A stretch of 37,829 bases of DNA from Bacteroidota bacterium. GTDB taxonomy: Bacteria; Bacteroidota; Bacteroidia; Flavobacteriales_D; Sanyastnellaceae. Under the pieces are notes generated by a model. The model saw only the letters and a program-made list of their open reading frames with translations, had not been told where the DNA came from and searched no databases. The translations under genes and the position numbers were made by a program. This document shows positions 1 through 28,975 of this stretch, piece after piece. The stretch's first letter is position 1. Every line of letters begins with the position of its first letter. The DNA lies in NCBI GenBank assembly GCA_027593035.1, contig JAQCJQ010000011.1, positions 1 to 37,829 of the forward strand, written 5' to 3'.

Positions 1-1
1 C

Positions 2-628
2 AATGAGCCTGGAGGACAAATGGATCAATACGCGTGTGCGCTCGGCGGAGTGCATCGTTTTTCGTTTCAACCAGAGTTTAAAGCGGAAACATGGCCGATC
101 CCATCGGGGGAATGGCTGTTGTTGGACTCTCGAGAACCCAAGAATACGTTGGGTATTTTGCATCGCGCCAAAACAGAGCGATTGGAATTGCTGCAGGCCT
201 GGAGTGATGATTGGGACTTGCTCTCTTCAGAGTCGCCTCCCGATTTCCCTCCATCCTTTTCCGCAAAACAAAGGGCATTGATGCAAGGAACTTTGGATTT
301 GCGTTCCGTCTCAGAACAAGGCCCGCATGCGATTCGGGAGTTCCCGTCAGATCCCGCGAATTGGTCGGTTTTGCTCACGGAGCATCACCGTTTGCTGCGG
401 GATATCTTGGGGGTCTCGACCGAGCGAATTGAGAACTTGTTGCTTGCGGCGCAATCCTCGGGGGCGTGGGGAGGGAAGATCAACGGTTCAGGTGGAGGCG
501 GAACGTGTTTTGTCGTTGGCCCTCCTGAGGCCACACCGAAAATCCAGGAGCACGCAACATCGATGGGAGCGCTAGCGATTCCCATTCAATTGGGGGCCCC
601 GGGCGTTCGGGTGTTTCAACAAGATTGA
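2..628 (+). CDS. Galactokinase-like GHMP sugar kinase, C-terminal half (partial)
   Basis: The reading frame is open from the first bases of the window, so the gene begins upstream; about 208 C-terminal residues are visible. The piece opens with a GGQMDQ sequence, which matches the galactokinase CGIMDQ motif whose Asp is the catalytic base. A galactokinase-like stretch (EHHRLLRDILGVS) and the C-terminal glycine-rich GHMP loop (GKINGSGGGG) follow. GHMP kinases phosphorylate small molecules with ATP; galactokinase-type members make sugar 1-phosphates in the cytosol. The next gene, 44 bases downstream, starts with a sugar-1-phosphate nucleotidyltransferase domain, so a kinase then nucleotidyltransferase order fits sugar activation. 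The substrate cannot be told from this half. Family assignment is firm; calling it galK would not be. Confidence 0.85.
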   Translation, partial: NEPGGQMDQYACALGGVHRFSFQPEFKAETWPIPSGEWLLLDSREPKNTLGILHRAKTERLELLQAWSDDWDLLSSESPPDFPPSFSAKQRALMQGTLDLRSVSEQGPHAIREFPSDPANWSVLLTEHHRLLRDILGVSTERIENLLLAAQSSGAWGGKINGSGGGGTCFVVGPPEATPKIQEHATSMGALAIPIQLGAPGVRVFQQD

Positions 629-672
629 ACGTTCATGGTTCTGAATTGATGGCTTTTACAGACCTTTAAGGC

Positions 673-2184
673 ATGCGATGCGATCGAATCATCATATTGG
701 CTGCAGGACGTGCTTCCCGCATGAAGTCCAGCGCAGAGAACGCCGGCTTGGAATTGCCCTCCATTTGGCAGGCGGATGCGCTCACGCGCCCCAAACCGAT
801 GATCCGCATTGGGCCGGAAGGCCAGCCTTTTTTGCATTACCTACTGGAGGCAGCCGAGGCCGCTGGATTCACGGAAGCGACCTTGGTCGTGGCTCCGAAC
901 GACGACGTGACCGCTTCATTTTCGGAGTCATGGAACCAACAGGCTACCGGGATGCGGATGCGCATTCGATTGGTCGTCCAGCCGACTCCTCAGGGAACAG
1001 GGCACGCTGTTCAAATCGCCATCGAAAACGACCCCATTCCGCAGGGACTTGGATTTGTCTTGTGCAATGGAGATAACCTTCCATCCGTGCAAGCGATGTC
1101 GACTTTGCGTTCTGTGCCCCAAGGCCAGGCGCTACTGGCGTATCATCAAGACCATTTGGGATTGCCACCAGAACGAGCCCAGGCATTTGCCCTGCTTCAG
1201 TCGTCTGACGGATGGCTTCAAAAAATCATCGAAAAGCCCAACGATTCTGTTTGGAAACATTGGTTGGAAACCCAAGCCCATCGCGGGGTTTCCATGAACT
1301 TATTTCGCCTTGACCCCGTGTCCCTCTTACCGGCCTTGCAGGCCTTGGAACCCCACCCCGAGCGGGGTGAACTTGAGTTGCCAACGGCCATCCAATCCAT
1401 GTTGGAGCACAACATGAGGATGGAAGTCATTCCATTGCAAGAACCCATTTTGGATCTCACGGGGGCAGCGGATTTGGAAAAGACTTCACAGGGTTTAATC
1501 GGGGGGAAGGACACCTGGACGCTGGAAGTCTGTGCCAGCAGCCCCGAAGATGTTCATGTGGCCGCAATGCACGGTGCTCAAAGAGTCGAGCTTTGTGCGC
1601 ATTGTGAATGTGGCGGATTGACCCCGTTGGAATCGGACATTCGCAGTGCCGTGCAGGAGGGCTTGCCCGTGCATGCCCTGATTCGTCCGCGTGCGGGGCA
1701 CTTCACATACATCGAAACCGAATGGCAGAGCATGCACCGTCAAATTGACGCGTCGTTAGCGGCAGGGGCCAGTCGTGTGGCGGTTGGAGGATTGGATGCC
1801 GCAGGTCGGTTTGAAGTGGAGCGCGTGCGCCAATGGGTGGATGCGTTCGGTGGGCACCGCTTGGTGATCCATCGGGCATTGGATGCATCGACCCAATGGG
1901 AAGAGGATGCGCAGGCTTTGCGCGCTCTTGGTGTGTTCCGGATTTTGAGCAGTGGAGGCGAAGCGAACGCTTGGGAAGGCCGTGAACGCATCCAACAATT
2001 GATGGCATGGGGCTTTGATGTGACAGTAGCGAGCGGTGTGTCTCCTGCTCAGAAACAGGCTTGGCTCGAGCTGGGTGTGCGGAATTTTCACGCGTCATGC
2101 CGCATGGAAGACGTCCGGGAAGTGCGCCATTTCGACGGCGCGACATTCCCCGTTTCGGCTGAGCGAGTGAGCGCCTGGTTTTAA
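673..2184 (+). CDS. Fusion of sugar nucleotidyltransferase and CutC domain
   Basis: The 503-residue protein has two unrelated domains. Residues about 4-265 form a RmlA/GlmU-type nucleotidyltransferase: a degenerate signature loop LAAGRASRM (9-17), K41 in RPKPM, GTGHAV (108-113), CNGDN (131-135) and IEKP (186-189). Residues about 281-503 match CutC along its whole length, with RVELCA (304-309), GGLTP (314-318), LIRPRAGHF (337-344 region), VIHRALD (398-404) and SSGG (426-429). Stand-alone CutC is about 240 residues, so both domains are nearly complete. The first would join a nucleotide to a sugar 1-phosphate. CutC is annotated as copper homeostasis, but its biochemical role is poorly settled. 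The gene sits between a GHMP kinase and a GH20 hexosaminidase, which points to sugar metabolism rather than copper. No frameshift or stop lies between the domains. Confidence 0.88.
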   Translation: MRCDRIIILAAGRASRMKSSAENAGLELPSIWQADALTRPKPMIRIGPEGQPFLHYLLEAAEAAGFTEATLVVAPNDDVTASFSESWNQQATGMRMRIRLVVQPTPQGTGHAVQIAIENDPIPQGLGFVLCNGDNLPSVQAMSTLRSVPQGQALLAYHQDHLGLPPERAQAFALLQSSDGWLQKIIEKPNDSVWKHWLETQAHRGVSMNLFRLDPVSLLPALQALEPHPERGELELPTAIQSMLEHNMRMEVIPLQEPILDLTGAADLEKTSQGLIGGKDTWTLEVCASSPEDVHVAAMHGAQRVELCAHCECGGLTPLESDIRSAVQEGLPVHALIRPRAGHFTYIETEWQSMHRQIDASLAAGASRVAVGGLDAAGRFEVERVRQWVDAFGGHRLVIHRALDASTQWEEDAQALRALGVFRILSSGGEANAWEGRERIQQLMAWGFDVTVASGVSPAQKQAWLELGVRNFHASCRMEDVREVRHFDGATFPVSAERVSAWF

Positions 2185-2231
2185 TGGTGTGTCATGTGAA
2201 GTGACCTTGGCTCCAAGGGTTTTCAAACGCC

Positions 2232-4502
2232 ATGATTCCCCTATTTTTGGCCATGCGACCATATCATCTTATCGTTTTGGTGTTGGTGTTTTCGGCGGCT
2301 TGTCAACCGCCCCAGTCCACATGGGTCGGGTCGACCGATGGACTCATTCCGCTGCCAGTTAGCCTGGTGCTTGCTGCTGGATCTGAGAAATTGTTGGTGC
2401 CTTCATCCCATTGGCATTGGCAAGTAGACGACGCCTGGGTGGATCAAGCCGAATTTTGGACAACGTGGTTGCCGGGTCAATCAGATGAGGCGGGAGCGGC
2501 CATCCAATTGCAGCGCATGGAAGGAATGCCTGTGGAAGGATACCAATTGCGGATTGCGGCCAACGAGGGAGTCTGGATCGGAGCTTCGGATGCGATCGGT
2601 GCGTTTCGCGCCTTGACAACATTGCGGCAGCTGTTTCCGGTGGAGCTAGAGCTTGAAATGACGGGGCAGGATTTTTGGTTGCCTGCGCTTGAGATGGAGG
2701 ATTTCCCGCGATTTGAACACCGCGGTTTGCTTTTGGATTGCTGCCGCCATTTTATGGAGCCTGAATTTGTCAAAAAGACCATCGATCTCCTCGCTTTGCA
2801 TAAAATGAACGTGCTTCATTGGCATTTGACAGAGGATCAAGGATGGCGGGTTCCGATTGCATCCTATCCCAATCTGGAAACGGTGGGGGCCTGGCGTGAG
2901 GAAAAGGATGGTCAATTGCATGGCGGTTTTTACACGAAAGAAGAAATTCGGGCCATCGTTGCCTACGCCACAGAGCGCGGTGTTACGGTCATCCCCGAAA
3001 TCGAGTTGCCAGGCCATAGCCGCGCTGCCATTGCGGCCTATCCCTGGTTGAGTTGCACGGGCGACACGTTGCCGGTGCCCAATGATTGGGGTGTATTCAA
3101 AGACATATACTGCGCTGGGCAAGACACGACGTTCCGATTTTTAGAAGCCGTGTTGGATGAGGTCATGGAGCTTTTTCCATCAGAATACATCCACATCGGT
3201 GGAGATGAAGCGCCGAAGGTCCGGTGGGATGCCTGTCCAAAATGCCAACGGCGCATGGAGACGGAGGGATTGCATGACAGCCATGAGTTGCAGTCGTGGT
3301 TCATTTCCCAGATTGGCGCTTACCTCGAAGCCAACGGTAGAAAACTCATCGGTTGGGATGAAATCTTGGAAGGCGGTTTGCCAGAAGGAGCTACGGTGCA
3401 ATCGTGGCGTGGAATGGACGGTGGACTCGCAGCGGTGGCAGCTGGGAAAAATGCGATCATGTCGCCGACCTCCCACTGCTATTTCGATTATCCACTTTCT
3501 GCTACAGACATGGAGGAGGTGTACCAATTTGAGCCCGTTCCAGAAAACATGGTTGGGGAGGGACGGATCTTGGGGGGAGAATGCAACATGTGGACGGAGC
3601 ATGCCCCGCAAGAATTGGTGGAGTCCAAGATTTATCCTCGGATCTTGGCCATGGCCGAAGTGCTTTGGAGTCCGAAAGCATTGCGCAATTATGCGGAATT
3701 TCAGGAGCGAAAGGCGCGGCATGATCAACGATTGAATGCGTGGGGCGTAGAGAGCGGATTGGAGAGCGATCCATTGGAGGCTCGTTGGGAAAAAGGAAGT
3801 GATCCATTCCGCGTTGAAGTGCAGGTGGATGCGGCGTTGGATCGCATCGAAGGAACGGTGGTTTTCACTCCCATATCCGCCCTTTCAGAGCCATCCCGAC
3901 ATGAGTTGGGATCGCGGATTCAAGTGGCAGGAGAAGGTGTGCTCCGAGCGGATCTAACGCGGGATGGCCGACCGTTGCGCGATGCCGTTTTGTTGCCGGT
4001 CGCGGGGCACATCGGTGCACACAGTGAAGTCACGATTGGCCACAATTTGAGCCCCTATTATCCGGGAGGCGGGGAGAATGGTTTGGCAGACGGTCGATTG
4101 GGAAGTCTGGATTTTAGAGATGGTTGTTGGCAAGCCACGCAATCGGACAACATGTCGGTGACCCTCGCTTTGCCCCAAGCCATTCAGCTGGATTCCCTGA
4201 GCATGCAATGTTACCGCTACCAAGACGCTTGGATATTCTTGCCGCAATTGATGGTCTTTGGCTGGTCAATGGATGGGGTGAATTGGGAAAATTCAATCAT
4301 TGACTTGCAAGAAAGAACAGGGCTTCCGGTGCTCGGCCCTACCGATGCTCAAGATGTGGTCAGGATCGCTTGTCCTGTAGGGGCAACGGCCCGTTTTGTG
4401 CGGCTGGAAGCTGTCAATCCAGGACCTTGTCCGGATTGGCATGATGCAGCATCATCGGCTTCCTGGATGTTCTTGGATGAATTGGTTGTTCACGGCAAGT
4501 AA
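2232..4502 (+). CDS. GH20 beta-N-acetylhexosaminidase, lipoprotein
   Basis: The 756-residue enzyme is predicted to remove terminal beta-linked GlcNAc or GalNAc from glycans. A hydrophobic signal ends in a lipobox with Cys24 (FSAAC), so it should be lipid-anchored in the envelope. Residues about 35-140 resemble the GH20 N-terminal domain. The catalytic barrel spans about 160-490, with LHWHLTEDQGWR (195-206), the EIELPGHS motif (256-263) and the catalytic Asp325-Glu326 pair in HIGGDE. GWDEI (374-378) and GGECNMWTEH (449-458) are further substrate-pocket motifs. The last ~150 residues look like a discoidin/F5-8 type C carbohydrate-binding domain (NGLADG, then a C-terminal RFVRLEA strand). A second in-frame ATG at 2253 gives a shorter, more typical lipoprotein signal and may be the true start. 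It follows the nucleotidyltransferase-CutC gene by 47 bases on the same strand. Confidence 0.93.
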   Translation: MIPLFLAMRPYHLIVLVLVFSAACQPPQSTWVGSTDGLIPLPVSLVLAAGSEKLLVPSSHWHWQVDDAWVDQAEFWTTWLPGQSDEAGAAIQLQRMEGMPVEGYQLRIAANEGVWIGASDAIGAFRALTTLRQLFPVELELEMTGQDFWLPALEMEDFPRFEHRGLLLDCCRHFMEPEFVKKTIDLLALHKMNVLHWHLTEDQGWRVPIASYPNLETVGAWREEKDGQLHGGFYTKEEIRAIVAYATERGVTVIPEIELPGHSRAAIAAYPWLSCTGDTLPVPNDWGVFKDIYCAGQDTTFRFLEAVLDEVMELFPSEYIHIGGDEAPKVRWDACPKCQRRMETEGLHDSHELQSWFISQIGAYLEANGRKLIGWDEILEGGLPEGATVQSWRGMDGGLAAVAAGKNAIMSPTSHCYFDYPLSATDMEEVYQFEPVPENMVGEGRILGGECNMWTEHAPQELVESKIYPRILAMAEVLWSPKALRNYAEFQERKARHDQRLNAWGVESGLESDPLEARWEKGSDPFRVEVQVDAALDRIEGTVVFTPISALSEPSRHELGSRIQVAGEGVLRADLTRDGRPLRDAVLLPVAGHIGAHSEVTIGHNLSPYYPGGGENGLADGRLGSLDFRDGCWQATQSDNMSVTLALPQAIQLDSLSMQCYRYQDAWIFLPQLMVFGWSMDGVNWENSIIDLQERTGLPVLGPTDAQDVVRIACPVGATARFVRLEAVNPGPCPDWHDAASSASWMFLDELVVHGK

Positions 4503-4509
4503 ACGCGAC

Positions 4510-7500
4510 TCACGGAGAGCAGGGGAACCCCCATACCGTCAGCAACCCCAATAAATCGCCTGTGTCAATGACGCCATCCGCGTCGAGGTCAATCACAGGG
4601 GAGGCTCCACCGCCGTCGATGCCCGTGGTTTGTCCATAGTGAATCAGGAGAATCAATAAGTCGAGCAGATTTCGTGTGCCATCCGCATTGAAATCTCCAA
4701 AACAAGGGCAATCATCCAGACCGTTGCAATCGAAAACGAGCAGTGGAAAGGCGTGCATTTCGGCGAGCATAAACGCGTCGACACCGATCGTCATGCCCAT
4801 CATCCGGCCGGGGAAATCATCTTGAGGCGGATGAATTCCGCCCCAAATTCGGGACAATGCACTTTGGTCCGCCGCATCCCGATACGTGGCCCATTGCAAT
4901 TCAATGTCCTGTGATGGGCCGTCTTCAAAAACGAGAAACTCATGCGCTTCGGCCGTGAAGGTCCCAATCCCGCCGGGGAAGAACGGGTCACCGGTCATGA
5001 GCGTCAGCACTTCGGCGGCTGCGCGGCTGAAGGTGGAGTGCCCACTGACATAGCCCGCAAAGGGCGGCGTAACAAATGTCGGGCGCTGATAAGGCCACCA
5101 TTCTTTGGCGCGAATCCAGTCGACTCCTGCTTGGTCAGTGGCCGGAACAGCGATCGCGAAGGGCCCGCGCCATGCCTTCAGCTTGATGTCATCCACGAAT
5201 TCATTGTTTTCGCCACGCAATTCAAGGGCGTCCTCATCGGTGATGAGCTCCACAAACCCGGGCACGAGAGGAAGACCCGCTCCGTGATAATGGGGCAATT
5301 CTGGATCGCTACTTTGGCCTTGATCCGCCATCCAGCGCAAGGCAGAAACGGGGCGGATGTAGTCGTACCAACCTTTGCAACTCCAAGCGGCAATGGCGGC
5401 ATCGTGCATGGCTCCGCCCATCGTGAAGTAACCCAGCACATCCCAATCAAGCATCGACAAGGTCGCACCCGTGCCGCGCCATTTCCTGTTCAATTCCGGT
5501 TGGTCATTGACATAGTTGAGTAAATCGAACCAATGACCGGGTGGAGTTTCTGAATCCGGTCCGTCTGCCCAGAATTCAGCCAAAACCCGTGTGAAATCCC
5601 CACGAAAAACCGGTTGTGGCGCATAGGGTTCTTGGGTAATGGGATTCAATGGATGGCCAAGTCCACTGGCTCCTTCGGCCATTCCGCCTTCCTCAAAAAC
5701 ATAATATGAGCGCGCTTCTTCCATGGTGGTCGGCATTTCGCCATCTCGGCCAAAAACTCCAGGACTGATGTCCCAGATGACCGAGTCTATGGGGTCGAGA
5801 TGGGAAGACCACAGCGCCACGAGCAGATGGCCCCATTTGTAGTCCGACTCGAGTGCAATGTCCACATTGGGATCAATGAGAGGCGGTGCGCCGGGATCAT
5901 GGTATACGGTGTAGTCGCTGCCGAGGCGTTGGTACATGCTGGTATCCGATGGATTCATCGCAAATGGCGTGACATTGCCCCACTCCGGACTGAGAAATTC
6001 AGGAGAGATGTTGGAACCTGTGTTGCCCGATTGATCAATGAATTCATTCAATTGCAAGGGTTGCCAGCGGTTGGGGAAGAACATGTTGGGATTGCCAGGT
6101 TCGTCCATGACAAGGTTCCAATTCATCGGGTTGTAATACGTGTTTTGGTATTGAATGGCTTCATTGGAGCCATCTTGAAGACCAAAATTGATGTACTGTT
6201 CTGCCAAATAGTTTCCCAAGGCAGCAGCAGCATTGACCGCATCTCCTGCCCCATAATCGGTAGAAACAAAAGCCGTGTCATAGCCCAAAGAAATCATGCG
6301 CGAGTCGATGTGTACTTGGATCAGTTCGGATCGCGGCGCTTCGGAAAAACGATGCTGCATCAACCGGTAAACCCCATAGCTGATCGCGCGTTCACGAGCC
6401 TGTTGACGGGCCTCCGCGGTGAGCGGTTCTGCGATTCCGTCAAAAGGACAGACGTATCCATCAACCGTATCTCCGAGCAGCCAGGGTTGAGGGCTGATGC
6501 TGCTGGGCTCACTAAAAGCAGACCAAGCGTCGTACATGAGCGCCGAACTGTGCCAGAGATTTCTTGCATGCACCGTGGGACGCGCCCAGTCGTTTCGGAT
6601 TCCGGTCAACAGAGCCTCATTCCAAATTCGCGCAATGCTATGCGTTTCTACCGTTGGAAATGATTCCAGCGGGGTTCCATCACAATTCAATCCCGCTTCA
6701 GGGTAGAAGCAAGAGCCGTTGTCGATGACAACACCCAAGTGGAAGTTGCAGGCGTGCGAATCTGAGCAGCCTGTAAAAAACCAAGGCGATGCTCCCGGTT
6801 CAAGGATGTGGTACAAGGTGTCAGCAGACAAAGAGTCTTGCTGGCTTATGAGGCCACTTGGCCATTGAATGATCACGGAATCGACGACCGTAACCTCCCC
6901 CAAACCAAAGTGCAGATGAAACGAGCTTGACCCGCTATATCCCTGTCCGCAGTGCACCTCGTCTGTGCGAACTTGATCGTTGAAATACGCGGTAACCCGC
7001 GCTCCGATGGCGTCCCGATTGGACGTCGTGCCTTCCAAACGGATGAGCGCTGCGTGCCCGGTCACATTGGTGTTTTCCAAAACGGTAAATCCCGGCTGGA
7101 CGGAAGATCCTGATGTGGCAATGGCCAAATCCAAGTCGCCATCCCCGTCCAAGTCCCCTTGGGCGAGACCGTAATCTTGATAAGGGTGTTCCAAATCTGC
7201 GATACCGGTGCTTGCAATCTCAAACTGCAAGTCCCCCAAGCCGTGGTAGAGCAAGTTGGGATAGGCGGCGAAGACATAATCGTTGACGATGTACAAGTCG
7301 GTTTCGGAATCGTTGTCATAGTCAAACCAAGCGCAGCCCCAAGTCATGCCCGTGTCATTCACTCCAGAAGATTCTCCAATGGCCGTGAAGGTTCCATCGC
7401 CGTCATTGAGGAACAACGCACTGGGGTAGAGATCGGTGACGTACAAATCCATCCAGCCGTCGTGGTTGATGTCTGCGGCATCCACACCCATGCAGTTCCC

Positions 7501-8268
7501 TTGATAATCCAATCCCACTTCAGCGGCGGCTTCTGTGAACGTGCCGTTCCCATTGTTCCGGTAATAACGATTGACCTGATTCCCGTCATGGGTCAAGTAC
7601 AAATCAACGTCGCCGTCATTGTCAGCGTCAAAAAACAAGCTGCCCATGCCGATGCCTGTATCGATGGCCCCTGAGGGGAAGGTTCTGTTTTGAAAGCCCG
7701 TGCCATTGAGGTTTCGCCACATCACATTGTGACTGTTGATGTTGACTACATACAAATCAAGCCAGCCGTCTTGATCATAATCAGCCGCATGGATGCTTCT
7801 GCAGGGCCCCATGTTGCCGATGCCCAAAGCAGTGGTCATATCCGTGAACGTACCGTCCCCATTGTTTTGAAAGAAACGATTGGCTTCCAGATAATTGCCA
7901 TTGACCAAGTCCAAATAACCATCGTTGTTGAAGTCCCCCCAAATGGTCGCCTGGGTGTTGCCCGCATCATCCACACCCGCAGCCACCGCCACCTCTTGGA
8001 ATTCCATGTTGCCCAAGTTTCGGAACAGCTTGTTGGCGGCAAACTTGGTGCCGACATAGATGTCTTGCAAGCCGTCGCGGTCATAATCACCGATGGCTGT
8101 GGCATGATGCAGCCCTTCTAGATTCAGCCCGGCAATTGCTGAAATGTCTTGAAACAAATCCTCTTGGGCCATGACTGATGTGGGCAACACCAGAAGGAGC
8201 GCAGGGAACCAGAGCAGCATCCAAGTCGAAAATGAGGTAAAGGAATTGAGCATGGTTCTGGCGGCCAT
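4510..8268 (-). CDS. Secreted FG-GAP/UnbV - vanadium haloperoxidase - dockerin-like fusion
   Basis: From the ATG at 8268 the protein has 1252 residues; in-frame ATGs at 8370, 8301 and 8253 are alternatives. The 8268 start gives a basic residue before the signal peptide, which ends near MAQ (33-35). Seven Ca-binding FG-GAP loops of the DxDxDG type follow (near 61, 112, 163, 214, 266, 316, 372). Next come an ASPIC/UnbV domain (about 418-475) and a Cys-rich CSDSHACN motif (501-508). Residues about 540-1175 form a vanadium-haloperoxidase/PAP2-type domain with all three active-site motifs: K965-x6-R972-P973, S1075-G-H1077, and S1139-R-x2-G-G-I-H1146. The tail carries two EF-hand-like loops (DFNADG at 1192, DLDADG at 1227), like dockerin repeats. 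It probably acts outside the cell as a haloperoxidase or phosphatase; the substrate is unknown. It converges on the GH20 gene. Confidence 0.88.
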   Translation of the reverse strand: MAARTMLNSFTSFSTWMLLWFPALLLVLPTSVMAQEDLFQDISAIAGLNLEGLHHATAIGDYDRDGLQDIYVGTKFAANKLFRNLGNMEFQEVAVAAGVDDAGNTQATIWGDFNNDGYLDLVNGNYLEANRFFQNNGDGTFTDMTTALGIGNMGPCRSIHAADYDQDGWLDLYVVNINSHNVMWRNLNGTGFQNRTFPSGAIDTGIGMGSLFFDADNDGDVDLYLTHDGNQVNRYYRNNGNGTFTEAAAEVGLDYQGNCMGVDAADINHDGWMDLYVTDLYPSALFLNDGDGTFTAIGESSGVNDTGMTWGCAWFDYDNDSETDLYIVNDYVFAAYPNLLYHGLGDLQFEIASTGIADLEHPYQDYGLAQGDLDGDGDLDLAIATSGSSVQPGFTVLENTNVTGHAALIRLEGTTSNRDAIGARVTAYFNDQVRTDEVHCGQGYSGSSSFHLHFGLGEVTVVDSVIIQWPSGLISQQDSLSADTLYHILEPGASPWFFTGCSDSHACNFHLGVVIDNGSCFYPEAGLNCDGTPLESFPTVETHSIARIWNEALLTGIRNDWARPTVHARNLWHSSALMYDAWSAFSEPSSISPQPWLLGDTVDGYVCPFDGIAEPLTAEARQQARERAISYGVYRLMQHRFSEAPRSELIQVHIDSRMISLGYDTAFVSTDYGAGDAVNAAAALGNYLAEQYINFGLQDGSNEAIQYQNTYYNPMNWNLVMDEPGNPNMFFPNRWQPLQLNEFIDQSGNTGSNISPEFLSPEWGNVTPFAMNPSDTSMYQRLGSDYTVYHDPGAPPLIDPNVDIALESDYKWGHLLVALWSSHLDPIDSVIWDISPGVFGRDGEMPTTMEEARSYYVFEEGGMAEGASGLGHPLNPITQEPYAPQPVFRGDFTRVLAEFWADGPDSETPPGHWFDLLNYVNDQPELNRKWRGTGATLSMLDWDVLGYFTMGGAMHDAAIAAWSCKGWYDYIRPVSALRWMADQGQSSDPELPHYHGAGLPLVPGFVELITDEDALELRGENNEFVDDIKLKAWRGPFAIAVPATDQAGVDWIRAKEWWPYQRPTFVTPPFAGYVSGHSTFSRAAAEVLTLMTGDPFFPGGIGTFTAEAHEFLVFEDGPSQDIELQWATYRDAADQSALSRIWGGIHPPQDDFPGRMMGMTIGVDAFMLAEMHAFPLLVFDCNGLDDCPCFGDFNADGTRNLLDLLILLIHYGQTTGIDGGGASPVIDLDADGVIDTGDLLGLLTVWGFPCSP

Positions 8269-8436
8269 GAAGTTAAGGAATTCGACGGATTGAGTCTTCA
8301 TCGGATCCGGGGAAGACTTTTCGATGAAGGGCATGTCTGGAAACGAATGGTTGGCTCTGGTTGTCGTCAATCACTTTAATAACGACATTAATCTTTGGAA
8401 AAAGCATTTTTAACGAAAAAAATTCCTTAATATCGC

Positions 8437-9682: not shown

Positions 9683-10789
9683 ATGAAAACTTTGCTGACC
9701 GTTATTGGGGCGCGACCACAATGGATCAAAGCGTCGGCCATGAGCCGCGTTTTGCAGCGTGCTGAGCATGGTATGCAAGAGCACGTGGTGCACACAGGTC
9801 AGCATGTTTCACAAGAGATGTCTGGAATCTTTTTTGAAGAGTTGGGCATGAAAGCCCCCGATACCCAATTGGAAGTGGAATTCGATCCCGCTCGTCGCAT
9901 GGGTCAAATGATGCAGGGGATAGCGGCGTCCATTTCTCAGGTCAAGCCGGATGCCGTGCTCGTATATGGGGATACCGATTCTACGTTGGCTGGTGCATGG
10001 GCTGCGTCAAGAGCGGGTGTTCCATTGATCCACATGGAAGCGGGATTGCGTTCTTTTGACCGTGCCATGCCTGAAGAAATCAATCGGATCCTTACGGATC
10101 AACTGAGTGCTGTTTTGTTGTGTCCTTCGGAAGCGGCGGTCAGTCAGCTGCGCAAGGAAGGTATTTTCACAAATTGCCGTCCAGGTGTTTTGGTGCAAGC
10201 CGCCGGGGATTTGATGTTGGATACGGCCTGTTGGATTGGCGGCGAGCCTGTGTCGCGCGTTTCCAATGGCAATAAGGTTTTATTGACCTTGCACCGACCA
10301 TCCAATGTGGATGACATGGATCGGCTTCGTTTGTGGATGGAAGCGATTAGAGACACCATCTGTCAGCAGGGGCTTGTGGTGATTTTCCCGGTGCATCCTC
10401 GCACAGCCGTAGCACTTCAAAAGGCTTATGGATTCGAATGGGATCTCATTCTGAAAGATTGGGGCATCCACGTGCAACGGCCTGCGGGGTATGTCCAAAT
10501 GATGGAGTGGCTGAATGAAGTCAATGCTGTTTGGACGGATTCAGGCGGGGTGCAGAAGGAGGCCTTTTTCAGGCATCGACCGGCCTTGGTGCTCAGAGAT
10601 ACGACGGAGTGGACGGAGTTGTTGGATGTGGGTGCTGCGGTATTAAGTCCAGAGCCAAAGGGATTGATGAGGCGAAATGCGGATCTCATGGCACGGGATT
10701 TCTCGCAGGTATTTGAAACGAATTTGTTCGGTGATGGGCACGCCGCTGAACACATTGCAGCAGCATTGCAGGCATGGTTCCAAAAGTAA
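9683..10789 (+). CDS. wecB: UDP-N-acetylglucosamine 2-epimerase (non-hydrolysing)
   Basis: The 368-residue enzyme interconverts UDP-GlcNAc and UDP-ManNAc, supplying ManNAc units for surface polysaccharide. It has the family N-terminus GARPQWIKA (9-17), HTGQH (37-41), YGDTDS (95-100), HMEAGLRS (117-124), PEEINR (130-135) and LHRPSN (203-208). Asp97, Glu119, Glu132 and His204 line up with the catalytic residues of E. coli WecB. DSGGVQKE near the C-terminus forms the UDP-binding loop. Its last 16 bases overlap the next gene, a deacetylase-like protein, so the two are probably translated from one mRNA. No wzx, glycosyltransferase or wecC neighbours are present, so its polysaccharide is not identified. 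Confidence 0.95.
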   Translation: MKTLLTVIGARPQWIKASAMSRVLQRAEHGMQEHVVHTGQHVSQEMSGIFFEELGMKAPDTQLEVEFDPARRMGQMMQGIAASISQVKPDAVLVYGDTDSTLAGAWAASRAGVPLIHMEAGLRSFDRAMPEEINRILTDQLSAVLLCPSEAAVSQLRKEGIFTNCRPGVLVQAAGDLMLDTACWIGGEPVSRVSNGNKVLLTLHRPSNVDDMDRLRLWMEAIRDTICQQGLVVIFPVHPRTAVALQKAYGFEWDLILKDWGIHVQRPAGYVQMMEWLNEVNAVWTDSGGVQKEAFFRHRPALVLRDTTEWTELLDVGAAVLSPEPKGLMRRNADLMARDFSQVFETNLFGDGHAAEHIAAALQAWFQK

Positions 10790-27418: not shown

Positions 27419-28975
27419 ATGGCGCTCAACTCTGCTTTTCGATGGTTTATTCGTCGTCGCATGGTGAACATCGAAATGGTGCGATCCAGGCCCGTCGAAA
27501 TTCAGCGTGCGGTATTTTCCAATCTGCTCAACGCTGGGCGAAATACGTCTTTTGGCCGGCAGCACGATCTTGACTCCGTAAAGAACCTGCGGGATTTTCA
27601 GCGACGTGTTCCCATTCGATCGTACGATGAAATCAAACCTTGGATTGATCGGGCGAGGGATGGAGAATCTGACGTTCTGTGGCCGGGGACGACGAAGTGG
27701 TTTGCCAAAAGTTCAGGAACGACAGCGGAGCGAAGCAAGTTTCTTCCGGTCACACGCAGTGCGCTGTACGGATGTCATTTTAAAGGAGGCCAGGACCTGC
27801 TGGCTTTGTTCAGTGACCAACGGCGGCAATCAAAGCTATATGGAGGCAAACATTTGGTTTTGGGCGGGTCTTCCTCTTTGACGGAAATGGGGGGGCTCGG
27901 GTATACGGGTGATTTGAGCGCCATCATCGTTGAGAATTTACCTTTCTGGGTCGAGTCCCGCCGCACCCCGCATCGCGAGATCGCCTTGATGGCGGAGTGG
28001 GAGCAAAAAGTGGATGCCATGGCGCGCGCTACGATCAAAGAGGATGTGCGAATATTGACTGGAATCCCGAGCTGGATGTTGGTCATTGTCAAGCGCGTTC
28101 TGGAGCTATCGGGGGCGTCAACCTTGGGTGAAGTATGGCCCAATTTGCAATTGTTCATGCATGGCGGAGTGAGTTTTTCGCCTTATCGGTCAGAATTTGA
28201 ATCGCTCATCGGTAGCACCAAGTATCCCTTTGATTATTTGGAAACCCACAATGCATCGGAAGGTCTTTTTGGTCTTCAAGACCGATTGGGAGAAAATGAC
28301 CTGCTGCTCATGCTGGACTATGGCATTTATTTTGAGTTTGTTCCAATGTCCGAATGGGGGAGTCAGAATCCCGTCTCCTTGGAGTTGAGGGAATTGGAGG
28401 TAGGAGCGGAATACGCCTTGGTCATTACAACCTCTGCGGGGCTTTGGCGCTATGCATTGGGTGATGTTGTACGCGTGACCGAATTGCACCCATTTCGGAT
28501 GCAGGTGTCGGGGCGAGTCAATGCCTACCTCAATGCCTTTGGTGAGGAATTGATGGGGCATCAGGCAGAAAAGGCCATGGCAGAAGCTTGCACACTCACC
28601 GGGGCGATGGTTCGTGATTATACTGCGGCACCGGTGTATATGCGATCCAACAGAACGGGCGGTCATGAATGGCTGATTGAGTTTGTGAAAAATCCCCAGA
28701 CCAGCATGCTGGAATTCATGGCTTTTTTGGACGCCTCCTTGATTCGCCAGAATTCGGATTATGCCGCAAAAAGAACCGGTGGATTGGCCATTGAACACCC
28801 TGTTGGTCGGGTTCTCGAGCCGGGGACATTTGACGCTTGGCTCAAATCGCAAGGAAAATTAGGGGGGCAGCATAAGATTCCAAGACTCTCCAATGAACGC
28901 CAATTGGTGGAGCAGATTCTGCTGCTGATTGGGCCGAAGGTCAAAAATCAAGCCCCCCCCGTTGTGACCAATTAA
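27419..28975 (+). CDS. GH3-family adenylating enzyme
   Basis: The 518-residue protein belongs to the GH3 (plant auxin-responsive) acyl-acid amido synthetase family of the firefly-luciferase superfamily. Landmarks are the nucleotide loop AKSSGTTAERSKFLPVT near 96, a FMHGGVSFSPYR segment, YLETHNASEG near 273-282 and RYALGD near 344. Plant members join amino acids to jasmonate or auxin; the substrates of the Bacteroidota group are unknown. A C8 homopolymer (28953-28960) lies a few codons before the stop, where slippage or sequencing error would alter only the tail. Confidence 0.88.
   Translation: MALNSAFRWFIRRRMVNIEMVRSRPVEIQRAVFSNLLNAGRNTSFGRQHDLDSVKNLRDFQRRVPIRSYDEIKPWIDRARDGESDVLWPGTTKWFAKSSGTTAERSKFLPVTRSALYGCHFKGGQDLLALFSDQRRQSKLYGGKHLVLGGSSSLTEMGGLGYTGDLSAIIVENLPFWVESRRTPHREIALMAEWEQKVDAMARATIKEDVRILTGIPSWMLVIVKRVLELSGASTLGEVWPNLQLFMHGGVSFSPYRSEFESLIGSTKYPFDYLETHNASEGLFGLQDRLGENDLLLMLDYGIYFEFVPMSEWGSQNPVSLELRELEVGAEYALVITTSAGLWRYALGDVVRVTELHPFRMQVSGRVNAYLNAFGEELMGHQAEKAMAEACTLTGAMVRDYTAAPVYMRSNRTGGHEWLIEFVKNPQTSMLEFMAFLDASLIRQNSDYAAKRTGGLAIEHPVGRVLEPGTFDAWLKSQGKLGGQHKIPRLSNERQLVEQILLLIGPKVKNQAPPVVTN

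Follow-up and report, generated by a model that had tools for sequence, protein, structure and literature searches.

The gene near the start of the analyzed contig (the window, i.e. the whole 37,829-nucleotide stretch of DNA) encodes a single chain in which a sugar nucleotidyltransferase (NTase) domain is followed by a domain of the CutC family. This architecture appears to be new, while both component families are known; in the open-access literature, the only kind covered, nothing relevant to it was found. The fusion protein is probably a bifunctional cytoplasmic enzyme of N-acetylhexosamine (HexNAc) salvage, the sugar probably being GlcNAc, and we consider it rather likely that the two domains work in a single route of amino-sugar salvage.

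Domain structure of the fusion protein

The open reading frame encodes 503 aa, begins with ATG and contains no internal stops (Table 1). Pfam searches recognized NTP_transf_3 (residues 7–134, 34.5 bits, cut-off 27) and NTP_transferase (residues 38–250, 23.6 bits, cut-off 21.2) in the N-terminal half and CutC (residues 284–476, 125.1 bits, cut-off 23.3) in the C-terminal half, the latter match covering positions 3–200 of the 202 in the profile; scored alone, the CutC half reached 127.9 bits against the same cut-off. The AlphaFold2 model of the whole chain, calculated from an alignment of 21 fusions, has a mean pLDDT of 89.7 and a pTM of 0.90, which suggests a fixed mutual arrangement of the two domains; its helix end at residue 276 and the first CutC strand, predicted to run from residue 283, bound the linker. 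The model of the CutC domain gave a pLDDT of 97.1. The sequence-only reading had described two nearly complete domains with their key motifs in an unbroken frame, and the open reading frame, the Pfam matches, the model and the fold matches all bear this out. A scan of positions 1–5000 of the window for promoters and terminators gave matches no commoner than in shuffled sequences.

Table 1. Positions of the fusion gene, its parts and its neighbors in the window
Feature	Position	Strand	Basis
GHMP sugar kinase, C-terminal part, cut by contig start	2..628	+	Pfam GHMP_kinases_C, 38.7 bits
Putative bifunctional nucleotidyltransferase-CutC fusion gene	673..2184	+	ORF, Pfam, alignment, model
Sugar-1-phosphate nucleotidyltransferase domain, residues 1–276	673..1500	+	Pfam/NCBIfam, invariant motifs, fold match
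Short linker, residues 277–280	1501..1512	+	Secondary structure of model
CutC TIM-barrel domain, residues 281–503	1513..2181	+	Pfam, model, fold match, invariant columns
GH20 beta-N-acetylhexosaminidase, lipoprotein-signal-like N-terminus, last cassette gene	2232..4502	+	Pfam Glyco_hydro_20, 369 bits

The N-terminal half passes the profile cut-offs of the sugar nucleotidyltransferases (PF00483/PF12804) and exhibits their catalytic motifs LAAGR..RM, RPKPM, NGDN, EKP and LDLT, whose residues are invariant in the 21 fusions. G12/R13/R16, K41, D134 and D261, likewise invariant in 21 copies, are taken by us, from the chemistry of RmlA and GlmU, to be the G-rich nucleotide loop with its Arg, the following Lys and the two metal-binding Asp residues. 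Residues 1–281 superimpose on GlmU, GalU and RmlA-type enzymes with Z-scores of about 25–27 and share their fold and catalytic motifs, but the identity to the solved enzymes is only 14–22%. In NCBIfam this half is closest to archaeal GlmU and to RmlA, yet it lies far under all equivalog cut-offs (domain alone: 59.2 bits vs 292.1 for TIGR03992 and 47.2 vs 320.25 for rmlA_long) and failed the equivalog test. The acetyltransferase half of GlmU has no counterpart in the window chain. PntC-AEPT (6pd2), a cytidylyltransferase joined to a transaminase, likewise combines an NTase with an enzyme of its own pathway; its partner, however, is a transaminase of phosphonate synthesis, in place of which the window protein carries CutC.

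The C-terminal half belongs to the CutC family (PF03932) by its full-length profile match, its predicted TIM-barrel fold and its invariant residues. Residues 281–503 of the whole-chain model match solved CutC structures with Z-scores of 25–28, and the model of the CutC domain matches the Shigella protein (1twd/1x7i) with a Z-score of 30.6 and an rmsd of 1.8–1.9 over 221–223 aligned residues. Over all comparisons with the Shigella and human (CUTC, 3iwp) structures the fold is the same (Z 25–31, about 27–30% identity), but the known structures are single-domain, whereas the window CutC forms the C-terminal half of a two-domain chain. A broad CutC alignment has 18 invariant columns, all 18 kept in the fusion (E26, C28, R58, R60, H120, R121, D124, S147, G148, H193 and others, in domain numbering). 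In the model most of these residues map to the C-terminal ends of the barrel strands, which is the usual location of a TIM-barrel active site, and they look like the active site of an enzyme. The nearest folds outside the CutC family are those of phosphosugar enzymes and phosphate-binding barrels (MJ1099, Z 18.9; KGPDC, Z 17.3; HisA, about 17); since a shared fold does not show function, this likeness serves as a lead only.

Residue 311 of the window protein (positions 1603–1605) is Cys, in contrast to Trp in the other 20 aligned fusions (AHCECGG vs AHWECGG), even in a 99% identical sister genome; the Cys may reflect either variation between strains or an error in the sequence.

Conservation and origin of the fusion

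A search of 60 relatives recovered the fusion from almost every member of the genus and from a second genus, and a census was then taken of 114 genomes of the bacterial family of the window. Of the 22 genomes of the genus, 20, among them that of the window, have open fusions spanning both domains, with identities of 51–99%; one copy stops at residue 480, where its contig ends. The second genus, g9, has the fusion in both sampled genomes. The carriers thus total 22 genomes of two genera, i.e. the window genome and at least 21 relatives. Both genomes of the genus in which the fusion was not found are drafts, and in one of them the cassette is cut at a contig end. CutC was found in 95 of 296 sampled Bacteroidota genomes, among which only the window's CutC lies in a long fused frame (504 aa), one other frame having 401 aa. 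A related-locus search matched only the 99% identical sister contig.

Since the assembly is a draft and the window one whole contig of it, the fusion might in principle be an artifact of assembly or annotation, and the sequence-only reading had itself pointed to a stop or frameshift missed near codon 275, or to a fusion seen only in this assembly, as what would undo it. However, the frame is free of stops across all 21 aligned copies, and the same open fusion occurs in separate genomes of two genera. With the open frame conserved in other species we reject the artifact, the probability of which is practically negligible.

Both halves of the fusion are under purifying selection, with dN/dS values of 0.16 for the NTase and 0.10 for CutC in one pair (L004-L005) and of 0.12 and 0.14, respectively, in another (L005-L006). 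In the phylogenetic tree the fused CutC domains form one clade (support 100/99), which probably reflects a single fusion event, and the GH20-linked CutCs of the bacterial family group in a clade of their own.

Gene cassette and its rearrangements in related genera

The cassette in the genus has the order sodium:solute symporter (SSS), GHMP kinase, NTase-CutC and GH20 hexosaminidase, and the order in g9 is identical. GH20 occupies the same position in all complete cassettes. Intact orthologs of the kinase in relatives comprise GHMP_kinases_N, GalKase_gal_bdg and GHMP_kinases_C, and the kinase lies directly 5' of the fusion in L039-L042, L045 and L046. Its scores point to galactokinase and mevalonate kinase, but all fall short of the equivalog cut-offs, which leaves its sugar uncertain.

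Sister genera arrange the same modules differently. In g3 the order is symporter, kinase and NTase in one chain, separate CutC, GH20; in g14 the kinase-NTase chain, CutC and GH20 are either together or split over two places; and in g10 symporter, kinase and NTase form one locus and CutC and GH20 another. Lineages thus differ in the fusion partner of the NTase, which is either the kinase on its upstream side or CutC on its downstream side. A candidate 933-aa kinase-NTase-CutC triple fusion in one g3 genome (G397) was rejected, as translation revealed several stops between NTase and CutC.

These rearrangements bear on the possibility that the fusion is a neutral run-together of neighboring operon genes, which would be co-regulated without sharing a substrate or a channel. 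The gene order is indeed colinear, g3 and part of g14 have a separate CutC just 3' of the NTase, so that the fusion is dispensable, and g10 keeps CutC-GH20 and kinase-NTase at different loci. We nevertheless regard such an origin as unlikely, because the fusion has been kept in 22 genomes down to 51% identity, both of its domains are under purifying selection (dN/dS about 0.1–0.16), several genera bring these two modules together in one cassette, and the pTM of the whole chain is high.

The logic of salvage by a GHMP kinase and a pyrophosphorylase is common to the cassette and to the Bacteroides FKP, an L-fucokinase/GDP-fucose pyrophosphorylase with a C-terminal kinase (PMC11982464). FKP unites both activities in one chain, and so do the kinase-NTase fusions of the sister genera, but the kinase comes first in those of g3 and g14, whereas the window chain comprises only NTase and CutC, with the kinase separate upstream, and failed the test for FKP-type membership. 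Kinase-first fusions of this FKP-like kind with reversed domain order were seen in L034 (3497-5413), L133-L139 and L141.

Homologs of the NTase were found in 22 of the 296 Bacteroidota genomes. Of 20 loci from outside the bacterial family, 15 have the same GHMP kinase beside the NTase homolog (median gap 9 bp), and at one locus the order is kinase-NTase-GH20. The neighbors of the pair in genus g40 include a NagB-like gene, so named from the Pfam Glucosamine_iso match of a homologous protein, and an MFS transporter resembling NagP by eye; some relatives have a GH35 beta-galactosidase-like protein, likewise recognized by eye, after the pair. Three loci from other Bacteroidota (L116, L119 and L124) have a symporter-kinase-NTase cassette with no adjoining CutC, so the salvage module may predate its link to CutC. 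Genus g10 has a second, very divergent CutC with a long branch in the tree (L038, 10023-10772), beside a glutamate formiminotransferase-like gene.

Genomic neighborhoods of CutC

A glycosylasparaginase gene lies within 5 kb of CutC in 32 of 65 Bacteroidota loci, and in 25 it is adjacent and on the same strand, with 8 families represented; the control loci centered on the NTase have it in 0 of 20. The identity of this neighbor is secure (E-value 7e-112 to the solved enzyme 3ljq). No glycosylasparaginase was found near the fused gene. The enzyme is apparently exported and CutC has no evident signal, so the two may not share a compartment.

Plasmid-borne CutC genes give a similar picture, sugar genes being present in 10 of 15 annotated neighborhoods (not counted are five plasmid records in which the surroundings of CutC are unannotated). 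The neighbors include ROK/BadF kinases, NagA, SIS isomerases, MurQ, sugar ABC transporters, mannose-family PTS, fucosidase and glycosylasparaginase. The other 5 of the 15, Salmonella among them, show no sugar genes. At the level of whole genomes, 16 of the 22 with the NTase also have CutC, vs 95 of 296 overall (Fisher p 6e-5), a comparison uncorrected for kinship and hence only supportive. A search of the open-access literature for CutC with glycosylasparaginase, TIM barrels or GlcNAc operons found nothing relevant.

A sugar-linked role is the best reading of CutC, since elsewhere, across several phyla, it lies beside glycosylasparaginase, GH20, sugar kinases, NagA and SIS isomerases, and the fusion lies in a sugar-salvage cassette. 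The earlier suggestion that CutC acts on a sugar is upheld in so far as neighborhoods and cassette link it to sugars at the level of the pathway; direct action on a sugar would be a further step.

Proposed amino-sugar salvage route

In the proposed route the exported GH20 would free the sugar, the SSS symporter would take it in, and the GHMP kinase would convert it to a sugar-1-phosphate, from which, with NTP, the N-terminal domain of the fusion would form an NDP-sugar and pyrophosphate; the CutC barrel may catalyze one more step, with this amino sugar or its phosphate as substrate. An isomerization or hydrolysis near the anomeric carbon (C1), readying the incoming sugar for the kinase/NTase pair, is the form of that step we favor, though as a specific guess it is quite doubtful. 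What the computations show is that the fusion exists and is conserved, that its active sites are intact, that it lies in the cassette and that CutC recurs in amino-sugar surroundings; the substrate, the order of steps and the chemistry of CutC are inferred. Among the 22 genomes of the genus, a NagB-type deaminase and NagA above the curated cut-off were found in none, so that catabolism by the classical route is apparently missing; this would fit a pathway in which GlcNAc is salvaged into a nucleotide sugar instead.

The salvaged sugar could instead be GalNAc or galactose. The kinase has a Pfam galactose-binding signature, galactokinase and N-acetylgalactosamine kinase are among its best relatives of solved structure, and the GH35 protein that follows the kinase-NTase pair in some relatives is beta-galactosidase-like. 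On the other hand, GH20 and the link of CutC to glycosylasparaginase point to GlcNAc, as do the NagB-like and NagP-like neighbors in one genus, and we consider the galacto-sugars possible but the less likely choice. The fusion and its kinase, symporter and hexosaminidase cassette define a small set of substrates with which the function of CutC can be directly tested.

CutC proteins occur from bacteria to humans, and for decades there has been no settled view of what they do. The wider neighborhoods argue that the "copper ion homeostasis" labels assigned to them automatically may be wrong. It is plausible, albeit somewhat short of probable, that copper homeostasis is the wrong heading for the CutC family as a whole, human CUTC not excepted, and that its members are amino-sugar enzymes whose site of action, on GlcNAc-type sugars or the phosphates of these, is the anomeric carbon or its vicinity. 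If this is true, the NTase-CutC fusion is a direct genetic link that exposes the misfiling.

The contrary view is that CutC is a copper-binding module, which in the fusion would sense or buffer Cu(I) and tie sugar activation to copper stress. Apart from the family name, it draws on Cys287 and Cys308, which are invariant in the 21 fusions, stand at positions that we take to be those of Cys31 and Cys52 in human CUTC, and make weak copper binding possible; the first of these Cys residues, however, varies in the wider CutC family, and the invariant residues resemble an enzyme active site. Genes annotated for copper, besides CutC itself, are found in 0 of the 15 annotated neighborhoods and none is in the cassette; one of the 15 has an RND efflux pair nearby, with the substrate unstated. 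Human CUTC binds one Cu+ per monomer with weak, micromolar affinity and has been judged an unlikely chaperone, yet its silencing raises copper sensitivity (PMC11083455). For E. coli cutC, the founding copper phenotype is now put down entirely to MicL, an sRNA encoded at the same locus (PMC6538781). On balance we regard a copper-sensing role in the fusion as very unlikely.

Other genes of the window

Downstream of the cassette, positions 9683-10789 encode a UDP-N-acetylglucosamine 2-epimerase (Epimerase_2, 264 bits); similar epimerase genes lie near the cassette in L033, L035 and L039-L043, so the neighborhood may be syntenic. The complementary strand (4510-8370) encodes an exported protein of 1286 aa that combines FG-GAP repeats, UnbV_ASPIC and a part resembling vanadium haloperoxidases and has a dockerin-like repeat (DLLxLLxxWGxxC) at its end; a similar ending is shared by many of the exported proteins in the loci of the bacterial family. 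Positions 27419-28975 encode a complete protein of the GH3 family (PF03321), which is acyl-adenylating and known chiefly from the conjugation of plant hormones.
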